Assembly: GCF_900156475.1 (NCBI RefSeq)
Contig: NZ_FTNR01000009.1
Location: 62,001 to 126,000 of the forward strand
Reading direction: 5' to 3'
DNA length: 64,000 nucleotides
Origin: Natronorubrum thiooxidans
GTDB taxonomy: Archaea; Halobacteriota; Halobacteria; Halobacteriales; Natrialbaceae
Shown: one piece after another, positions 4,723 to 7,189 of the stretch
Layout: the number at the start of each line of letters is the position of its first letter
Position numbering within the stretch: position 1 is the stretch's first letter
Notes under the pieces: model-generated
Told to the model about the DNA's origin: nothing
The model's input: only the letters and a program-made list of their open reading frames with translations
The model's database searches: none
Program-made: the position numbers and the translations under genes

Positions 4723-5946
4723 ATGACAGCATCGCCACGCACTCGCGACGCGGCGTTTCGATTCGAGTTCGATCCGGCGACGATCAGATTCAGTGCCGGC
4801 TGTGTCGACGACCTCGAGGGCGAACTCGAGCGCCAGAGCCTCGAGCGCGCACTGGTCGTCTGTGGTTCGACGGTCGGCAGTACAGCCGAGGTGATCGACC
4901 CGGTCAGGGACGGCCTCGGCGACCGACTCGCGGGGGTGTTCGCCGAGACGACGCCGAAAAAACGGCTCGGGACGGCGGTCGACGGGCTCGAGCGACTCGA
5001 AGAGGAGGATGCCGACGTGCTCGTGAGCCTCGGCGGCGGGAGCAGCCTCGACGTCGCAAAAGTCATCAGCGTTCTCGCGGCGAGCGACCGCGAGCCGGCG
5101 GCGATCGGCGCGGCGTTCGAAGAGACGGGAACGATTCGGGTCCCGGACGAGAGACTGGTGCCGATCGTCGCGATTCCGACGACCCTCGCCGGGGCCGACC
5201 TCTCGCAGGTCGCAGGCGTCACCGCCACAGCCGAGTCGGGACTGGTGAATAAAGACGTCGGCGGCGGCATCTCCGGGCCGGGGCTGATGCCCGCCGCAGC
5301 CGTCTACGATCCCGACCTGGTGGCGACGACGCCCGAGTCGATCCTCGCGGGATCGGCGATGAACGGCTTCGACAAGGGCCTCGAGGCGATCTACGCCGCC
5401 AACGCGACGCCGGTGACCGACGCCACGGCGACGCGCGGGCTCGGCAAACTCGAGACCGGCCTTCGTGCGTTCGGCCGCGGCGAGCGCGGCATCGAGACGT
5501 TCACAACGATCCTCGAGGGCGTCGTGCTGGTCCAGTACGGCATCTCCCGGCCCGACGAGACGATGCTGTCGATCGTCCATGCCTTCGGCCACGGGCTCAC
5601 GCGCACGTACGAGGTCCAGCAGGGGGCAGCACACGCTGTCGTCGTCCCACACGTCCTCGCGTATCTGTTCGAACAGGAAGGTGTCGACGCACGGCAGGAC
5701 GTGCTGGCCGACGCACTGGGCGTCGCCGATGCGGCCGATCCGGCACGAGCGGTCGTCGACAGGGTGGCCGATGTGCGCGACGCACTCGCGTTGCCGACGC
5801 GGCTTCGTGACGTCGACGGCCCTAAACCGGACGAGTTCGCTGCCGTCGCGGAGGCGATCCTCGCTGATTCGTTCATGAAAAACGCACCGCCAGGGCTGGA
5901 TCCTTCAGTTGAGGACATCGAAGGCATTCTCGAGCAGGCGTGGTAG
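4723..5946 (+). CDS. iron-containing (group III) alcohol dehydrogenase family protein
   Basis: 407 aa, the full length for this family. LVSLGGGSSLDVAKVIS (about residues 103-119) is the NAD(P)-binding signature, IPTTLAGADLSQVAGVT follows as the second nucleotide-binding block, and the metal ligands can be seen as the Asp in NGFDKGLEAIYAANATP (about 217) and the histidines of HAFGHGLTRTYE (about 286-290). It probably interconverts an alcohol and an aldehyde or ketone; the substrate cannot be told from sequence. Isolated gene with its own promoter region; the queCED operon lies convergently beyond a structured gap. Confidence 0.85.
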   Translation: MTASPRTRDAAFRFEFDPATIRFSAGCVDDLEGELERQSLERALVVCGSTVGSTAEVIDPVRDGLGDRLAGVFAETTPKKRLGTAVDGLERLEEEDADVLVSLGGGSSLDVAKVISVLAASDREPAAIGAAFEETGTIRVPDERLVPIVAIPTTLAGADLSQVAGVTATAESGLVNKDVGGGISGPGLMPAAAVYDPDLVATTPESILAGSAMNGFDKGLEAIYAANATPVTDATATRGLGKLETGLRAFGRGERGIETFTTILEGVVLVQYGISRPDETMLSIVHAFGHGLTRTYEVQQGAAHAVVVPHVLAYLFEQEGVDARQDVLADALGVADAADPARAVVDRVADVRDALALPTRLRDVDGPKPDEFAAVAEAILADSFMKNAPPGLDPSVEDIEGILEQAW

Positions 5947-6062
5947 CGTTCGACCGGTCTCATAGGGATTGATGTAACGATCCCCATCAGTCGTTCTCGT
6001 CGCACGCACTCGAGTACGGACCGGTATGACGACACTCGGCAATCGAGAGCCGGCAAATAAAT

Positions 6063-6093
6063 GCATGATACTACCAAGCATGATACTTATACT
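6063..6093 (+). promoter_or_regulatory. tandem 10-bp direct repeat overlapping a TATA box
   Basis: GCATGATACT occurs exactly twice (6063-6072 and 6078-6087), 15 bases apart, and the second copy runs into CTTATACT (6086-6093), a good TATA-like element. No protein gene starts downstream on this strand; transcription would begin near 6112-6117, exactly where a strong hairpin starts. Confidence 0.45.
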
Positions 6094-6111
6094 GAAGGGG
6101 CGCGGAGCCAT

Positions 6112-6309
6112 TGCTGTCGCTGGGCGATAGCAAGTTCAGTGATCGACCGGCGTCTCACGTATCAAGTGACGGCGCGTATCCACGGCCTGAAGACCGTGGT
6201 ATTGCGCCTGCTCCGCGTATAACCGACCACGGCGATCCGGGCCGCGCATCCTCGAGTAATGGTTGGAGTAGCAAACGAGGATTCGAGCCCCAATTTGCGC
6301 GGCCTTTTT
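6112..6309 (+). ncRNA. candidate structured non-coding RNA between adh and queC
   Basis: About 200 bases with no convincing reading frame and three strong nested folds. Stem A: TTGCTGTCGC (6111-6120) with GCGATAGCAA (6124-6133), ten pairs including one G-U, 3-base loop. Stem B: GGCGC (6171-6175) with GCGCC (6204-6208), a symmetrical 4x4 internal loop, then CCACGG (6180-6185) with CCGTGG (6194-6199) around an 8-base loop. Stem C: GGCCGCGCA (6240-6248) with TGCGCGGCC (6296-6304), enclosing TCCTCG (6249-6254) with CGAGGA (6276-6281), followed at once by TTTTT (6305-6309). A TATA-like box sits about 25 bases before stem A. I match it to no known RNA family: too short for RNase P or 7S RNA and not a cloverleaf. 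Alternative: remains of an IS200/IS605-type end, since stem B resembles hairpins near such elements. Confidence 0.45.
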
Positions 6310-6423: not shown

Positions 6424-7170
6424 TCAACTGTTACCAGCGGGGTTGTCGTCCACGTATGACGGCCGTTCGGCGTACGCGATCGGGTCCCGAACGCCGATGT
6501 TCTGGAACGCCTGCAGCCGGAACGCACACGCATCACAGGTCCCGCAAGCGGGTTCGTTCTCGCGGTAACAGCTCCAGGTGTGTTCGTAGGGCACCTCGAG
6601 GTCGACCCCGCGTTCGGCGATATCGGTCTTCGACCACTCGACGAACGGGGCTTCGATCGAGATCTCGGTCTCGGGTTTCGTGCCGACGTCGACGACCCGC
6701 TCGAAGGCCTCGAAGAACGCGGGCCGGCAGTCTGGATACCCCGAGAAATCCTCGCTGTGGGCACCGATGAAGACGGCCTCGCAGTCGTTAGCCTCGGCGT
6801 AGGAGACGGCCATCGCGAGCAGGTTCGCGTTTCGGAAGGGGACGTAGGAGGTGGGGATCTCCTCGCTGTCCATATCGGCGTCTGCGACCTCGAGGTCGTC
6901 GTCGGTCAGACTCGAGGCCCCGATCGCCGCGAGATGGCCGGTTTCGATCTGCAGGAAGTCCGCCGCGTCGAGTTCGTCAGCGAGGCGACGAGCACACTCG
7001 AGTTCGCGGTCCTCGGTTCGCTGGCCGTAGGAGGTGTGCAGGGCGTAGATCTCGTAGCCCCGGTCGCGGGCTTCGTAGGCGGCGGTGGCGCTGTCCATGC
7101 CGCCCGAGAGGAGGACGACGGCGCGTTTGGGAGTCGATTCGTCGGTCGTGGGTGTCGTATCGTCGGTCAT
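6424..7170 (-). CDS. queC: 7-cyano-7-deazaguanine synthase QueC
   Basis: 248 aa from the ATG at 7170 (a TTG two codons upstream is less likely). VVLLSGGMDSATAAYEA is the PP-loop ATP-binding motif, YVPFRNANLLAMAVSYAEA a family block, and the zinc-binding cysteines are seen in WSCYRENEPACGTCDAC. It converts 7-carboxy-7-deazaguanine to preQ0 with ATP and ammonia. In archaea preQ0 is inserted at position 15 of tRNA and made into archaeosine. Last gene of queD-queE-queC; it starts 19 bases after queE. Confidence 0.96.
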   Translation of the reverse strand: MTDDTTPTTDESTPKRAVVLLSGGMDSATAAYEARDRGYEIYALHTSYGQRTEDRELECARRLADELDAADFLQIETGHLAAIGASSLTDDDLEVADADMDSEEIPTSYVPFRNANLLAMAVSYAEANDCEAVFIGAHSEDFSGYPDCRPAFFEAFERVVDVGTKPETEISIEAPFVEWSKTDIAERGVDLEVPYEHTWSCYRENEPACGTCDACAFRLQAFQNIGVRDPIAYAERPSYVDDNPAGNS

Positions 7171-7189
7171 CGGCAATCAGTCTCGAACA

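Follow-up and report, generated by a model that had tools for sequence, protein, structure and literature searches.

A predicted small RNA gene between adh and queC, carrying a transposon left end in one of its hairpins, probably represents a new RNA family found mainly in the Natrialbaceae

The window, that is, the whole stretch of 64,000 nucleotides analyzed here, contains a 477-bp gap between the gene of an iron-type alcohol dehydrogenase (adh) and queC, and the feature under study lies in this gap. Elsewhere in the window, we noted a tRNA-Ala (GGC) at 1431-1503 on the minus strand and an Rfam S15-Halobacteria ribosomal protein leader at 1724-1794 on the plus strand (69 bits). The locus is organized as follows.

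4723-5946, plus strand: adh, iron-type alcohol dehydrogenase
6062-6080, plus strand: palindrome-like element TGCATG-N7-CAAGCA beside the TATA box, recognized by the conservation of its half-site in relatives
6086-6092, plus strand: TATA-like box CTTATAC, placed by its constant spacing to an invariant loop and by alignment A3
6113-6309, plus strand: predicted noncoding RNA (ncRNA), 197 nt in this genome, its start derived from the TATA spacing and its end from the T-run; matched by covariance model R1 at 6110-6308 (E 1.1e-21) and by the refined model R3 at 6117-6308
6305-6309, plus strand: T-run, probable termination site, supported by the position of the T-run in relatives
6424-7176, minus strand: queC

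As judged from the distance to the TATA-like box, transcription should start at about position 6113, and the predicted transcript ends with a conserved hairpin followed by a U-run. The T-run reported in the original prediction is indeed present, and most relatives have a short T-run or T-rich end in the equivalent position. Without a 58-nt insert, described below, the RNA would measure about 139 nt. On the plus strand, folding yielded only a slight excess of stability (z = -1.8). Since a value of this size would not settle the case by itself, the comparative evidence is decisive.

We turned to the relatives of this sequence. An ordinary sequence alignment of 13 of them, coming from several genera (A1), gave a consensus of three hairpins, and a covariance model was derived from it (R1). 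The elements of this conserved fold have the following positions in the window.

6116-6143, plus strand: hairpin A, GUCGCUGGGC-GAUAGCAA-GUUCAGUGAU, with covarying pairs in relatives
6125-6134, plus strand: invariant CGAUAGCAAG, made of the loop GAUAGCAA and its closing C-G pair, identical in 39 of 40 relatives
6150-6160, plus strand: 5' arm of hairpin B, aligned by R1 with non-standard pairs, the pairing being partly eroded in this copy
6228-6239, plus strand: 3' arm of hairpin B, from the A1 consensus and the R1 alignment
6240-6304, plus strand: hairpin C, with outer arms at 6240-6247 and 6297-6304 and inner arms at 6248-6254 and 6277-6283
6284-6296, plus strand: one-sided 13-nt bulge of hairpin C

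In A1, 9 of the 32 pairs were changed on both sides. When 34 aligned matches were fitted to the model (A2), double changes were observed at 15 of the 32 pairs, and 92.0% of the cells were paired, compared to 30.6 to 38.0% in slid controls; none of 500 shuffles reached this level. Because A2 was fitted to the model, we consider A1 and A3 to be the unbiased witnesses. In A3, for instance, pair 67-86 is CG in 24 sequences, TA in 10, and AT in 2. Compensatory changes back all stems of the conserved fold. The third stem with a nested inner stem that had been proposed earlier corresponds to hairpin C and is shared by the relatives: in A2, the outer helix was paired in 99.3% of the cells and the inner helix in 90.3%, and 4 of the 8 outer pairs had double changes. 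Hairpin B of the relatives has a stem of the GUAUCG/CGAUAC type and a variable tip. In hairpin A, the stems vary freely while the loop and its closing pair remain invariant over 10 nt, and all 10 pairs can be formed in the window copy.

In one subgroup, composed of Haloterrigena, some Natronorubrum, and Natronolimnohabitans, the CTCCTCG/CGAGGAG inner stem at the apex of hairpin C is replaced by the inner hairpin TATTGCAACGGGCGTCCACCGTCGCTCCGGACCCGTTA, which is nearly identical in sequences L104-L108, L110, L100, and L119 and may represent a second functional module. We also considered a GGUG/CACC pseudoknot that would link hairpin A to the bulge of hairpin C. It can form in Natronococcus and Natrinema and is absent from the L092/L094-type sequences and from the window copy, so we do not claim it. 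The TTGG/CCAA pseudoknot suggested earlier for the third stem involves a loop that varies, and it is not conserved.

The pattern of changes also bears on the coding potential of the region. Open frames of 66 amino acids cross it in the window, which could point to a small protein. Against this, indels of very different lengths separate the relatives, changes at paired positions compensate each other, and we saw no frame kept, so that a coding function appears highly improbable. This is in agreement with the earlier statement that no protein reading frame fits the sequence, and a conserved structure in noncoding DNA is what characterizes haloarchaeal intergenic small RNAs (sRNAs).

Another feature of this kind of RNA, a promoter of its own at a fixed distance, was also found. 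In 34 of 40 sequences, exactly 34 nt lie between the TATA-like box and the invariant CGAUAGCAAG. Moreover, the box was at the expected place in 20 of the 21 R1 matches outside the training set (expected by chance, 1.1%). As R1 had been built without upstream sequence, the promoter represents an independent confirmation. Farther upstream, the half-site TG(C/A)NTG was present in 32 of 40 relatives (chance, 1.2%). It forms the first half of the palindrome-like element (TGCRTG-N7-CAAGCA), a probable factor-binding site to judge from this conservation. The full element occurs once in its own genome; a genome search aimed at a regulon defined by it gave this one site only, and the idea was abandoned. 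The tandem repeat GCATGATACT running into a TATA-like box, as first described, is present and corresponds to the palindrome-like element and the TATA region, with the TATA spacing common to the relatives. Taken with the covariation, this promoter conservation supports the predicted unit put forward in the original prediction, a separate, structured RNA, about 200 bases long, complete with promoter, fold, and terminator.

We then analyzed the distribution of the RNA. R3 found exactly one copy in each of 43 of 125 Natrialbaceae-like genomes, representing 11 of 29 genera. Carriers with a name include Natronococcus, Natrinema, Haloterrigena, Halostagnicola, Halobiforma, Natronolimnohabitans, and Natronorubrum. 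Judging from identical copies in L100/L122 and L103/L117, the genome of the window belongs to the same genus as the Natronorubrum matches. With R1, 31 of 392 genomes of the order were matched, again with one copy each. A phylum-wide search of 295 genomes gave no match outside the family; one clear member beyond it, a diverged copy in an unannotated gap of a Haladaptatus halobius megaplasmid, was found by the exact core pattern. The exact core was not found in viral contigs, nor did a BLAST search of plasmids and phages with a Natronococcus copy return a match. Weak R2 matches in other families (E about 0.002 to 0.1) were at noise level and were not counted.

The genes next to the RNA change with the genus and include peroxiredoxin and hsp20, queC, a moaD-type gene, aIF1A, a HAD hydrolase, and others. 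Because the neighbors differ in this way, we regard the RNA gene as free-standing and tied to none of them. The same observation weighs on the idea that the feature simply belongs to the queC or adh transcript, as its 3' region or its terminator. Its location between the two genes would suit this idea, and hairpin C with the U-run could end a plus-strand adh transcript, but in other genera the RNA unit, promoter included, adjoins unrelated genes, which makes this explanation very unlikely. Presence is patchy even within genera, many species of the carrier genera being devoid of the RNA gene; the RNA is therefore not essential. The occurrence of a single-copy gene at different loci across genera amounts to relocation and loss without obvious mobility genes.

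Overall, we consider, with a probability of roughly 0.7, that the locus harbors a free-standing small RNA gene belonging to a new conserved family present mainly in the Natrialbaceae. Comparison of sequences identifies window positions 6113-6309 (plus strand) as a predicted member of a conserved, structured, noncoding RNA family.

The window copy differs from its relatives by the 58-nt insert, and in the R1 alignment its extra nucleotides fell into the loop of hairpin B. The segment concerned reads as follows.

6161-6218, minus strand: solo left end (LE) of an IS200/IS605 (IS1341-type) element, 58 nt, antisense, within the loop of hairpin B
6219-6222, minus strand: TTAT target tetranucleotide flanking the LE and preceding it in nearly all copies

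A DNA search with positions 6165-6222 gave 14 matches in its own genome and matches in 71 of 195 genomes of the order (window copy counted). Read on the minus strand, nearly all LE copies begin with TTAT followed by ACGCNGANCAGGCGCAATACCACGG..CCGTGGATACGCGCCGTCAC, and in several of them a tnpB gene comes next and ends in a GGAGGATGTCAA right end. At the window locus, neither the right end ..GGAGGATGTCAA nor tnpB was found, both being present in intact copies elsewhere. The second stem with a symmetrical 4x4 internal loop, formerly attributed to the RNA itself, lies within 6161-6218 and corresponds to the LE hairpin, which stands beside TTAT as expected of an IS200/IS605 element and is absent from the RNA of the relatives. 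This is a reminder that the palindromic end of a transposon can pass for an RNA stem.

Orthologous sites without the insert allowed us to determine which of the two elements came first. The LE is missing not only from the RNA of the relatives but also from the orthologous adh-queC site. In another genome of the same family (G164), the sequence beside queC matches 6100-6167 at 80% and 6238-6308 at 73% and lacks the LE, and a Natrinema genome (G276) keeps the adh-RNA-queC order in full, also without the LE. In contrast to the RNA gene, the intergenic sequence flanking it is not conserved. The LE is thus best read as an insertion 3' of TTAT, within the length-variable loop of hairpin B of an older RNA gene. 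These natural empty sites refute the reading of the whole feature as an IS200/IS605 remnant or a MITE. Although 6161-6222 is indeed an IS1341-type left end, the locus has no right end or tnpB, the flanks at 6100-6160 and 6238-6309 are conserved in relatives devoid of the LE, and there is one copy per genome, which leaves this reading with a negligible probability. A transposon fragment, initially named as what could explain the sequence away, accounts for the 58 nt of the second stem, whereas the remaining RNA is older and conserved without it.

The solo LE has the short direct repeat ATACG at its borders, a configuration compatible with a transposon that inserted in full and then lost its body through microhomology. 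Near 1501-1660 of sequence L012, we observed another rearranged IS1341 LE, joined directly to the last tnpB codons through an internal deletion. In haloarchaea, left ends that stand alone or are shortened seem to be recurrent.

Whether an RNA gene with such an insert still works depends on the state of its other parts. An RNA broken by the transposon end and decaying as a pseudogene could explain the 58-nt insert in hairpin B, the mismatches and non-standard pairs of this hairpin, and the preference of the minimum-energy fold, by 4.5 kcal/mol, for a non-conserved first hairpin. This preferred hairpin is the 10-bp first stem of the original prediction (TTGCTGTCGC/GCGATAGCAA): it can form and is the minimum-energy choice in the window copy, but the relatives cannot form it and covary instead for GUCGCUGGGC-GAUAGCAA-GUUCAGUGAU at 6116-6143. 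For this reason, we take the conserved hairpin A as the functional one. Covariation in all three stems had been named as a sign of support; it was found in the three hairpins of the relatives, to which the first and second stems as originally drawn do not belong. As for decay, hairpins A and C are intact, the latter with compensated pairs, and so are the promoter with its palindrome, the TATA spacing, the invariant loop, and the U-run. In addition, relatives L065 and L102 carry long, unrelated insertions of their own in the loop of hairpin B. Since such loops exist at this very place, the transposon end would be tolerated there. A pseudogene is therefore unlikely, and because everything except hairpin B is intact, the window copy is probably still functional.

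Regarding function, the conserved features are most consistent with a trans-acting regulatory sRNA whose invariant 8-nt loop would be offered to a target, either an RNA or a protein. Transcribed alone, the RNA would act in trans, hairpin A would present GAUAGCAA as a recognition site, and hairpin C would shield the 3' end and end transcription. We favor, at slightly less than even odds, a loop that acts as a seed pairing with a target RNA. The alternative is a protein-binding RNA, a scaffold or decoy rather than an antisense regulator, with CGAUAGCAAG on hairpin A as the protein site. Indeed, the 10-nt loop and closing pair are invariant on stems free to vary, and a target search with the loop complement CTTGCTATCG showed no over-representation in the four genomes analyzed and yielded no target. 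A seed under selection would nevertheless look alike, and no known protein motif was recognized in the loop, so that we hold a protein site to be possible but rather doubtful, behind pairing with a target RNA.

The one recurrent result of the target search was a set of three matches in front of tnpB genes. In three genera, the RNA's invariant 10-mer CGATAGCAAG is found a short way upstream of tnpB in another subfamily of IS1341-type elements (L193, G000:C36:7996; L191, G145:C1:2965914; L204, G195:C165:12285). More copies of that tnpB-linked left end carry the variants CGATGGCA and CAATGGCAAG and do not keep the motif, and we thus regard the occurrence as probably a coincidence.

More speculatively, the family might constitute a new class of haloarchaeal RNA, with CGAUAGCAAG as the working part either of a ribonucleoprotein or of one dedicated regulatory contact, and with a gene that relocates between intergenic sites and here takes a transposon end as an extension of hairpin B; we consider this rather unlikely. 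Few archaeal ncRNA families have a structure backed by covariation across genera. This one offers an invariant motif, a defined promoter, a natural insertion mutant, and genera in which the RNA is naturally present in some members and absent from others, so that its function is directly open to deletion and loop swaps.

Among known systems, the closest in kind is sRNA132 of Haloferax volcanii, a 138-nt intergenic RNA with its own promoter, reported only in the genus Haloferax, which acts in trans on metabolism (phosphate genes) and has two stems separated by a pyrimidine-rich linker (PMC6560208). Like sRNA132 (PMC6560208), the RNA described here is intergenic, has its own promoter and folded stems, and is conserved in related species. 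Compared by description, it differs in its three hairpins, its invariant GAUAGCAA loop, its presence in Natrialbaceae, and its several loci. The segment 6161-6218 (minus strand), with its own hairpin and flanking TTAT, corresponds to the left end of haloarchaeal IS200/IS605 (IS1341-type) elements, but unlike an intact element, the locus lacks a right end, tnpA, and tnpB, and the LE is an insert in the RNA gene. Haloarchaeal ncRNAs linked to IS200/IS605, the omega RNA and sotRNA, are tied to tnpB genes (PMC12558985, PMC8303175), whereas the window locus has no tnpB and its transposon part is an antisense left end. An omega RNA would require overlap with the 3' end of tnpB and a right end, neither of which exists at the locus. 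By inspection, guide RNAs did not fit either: hairpin C runs into a U-rich end without a conserved ACA in most relatives (box H/ACA), and A1 and A3 contain no conserved RUGAUGA/CUGA pair (box C/D). As in Rfam 15 families, the structure is supported by covariation; with Rfam 15 itself, the locus had no match at gathering scores, and four intact relatives had none that exceeded chance. Being neither an Rfam family nor an omega RNA, and having no guide-RNA boxes, the predicted RNA therefore represents a putative new family of the haloarchaeal intergenic sRNA kind.
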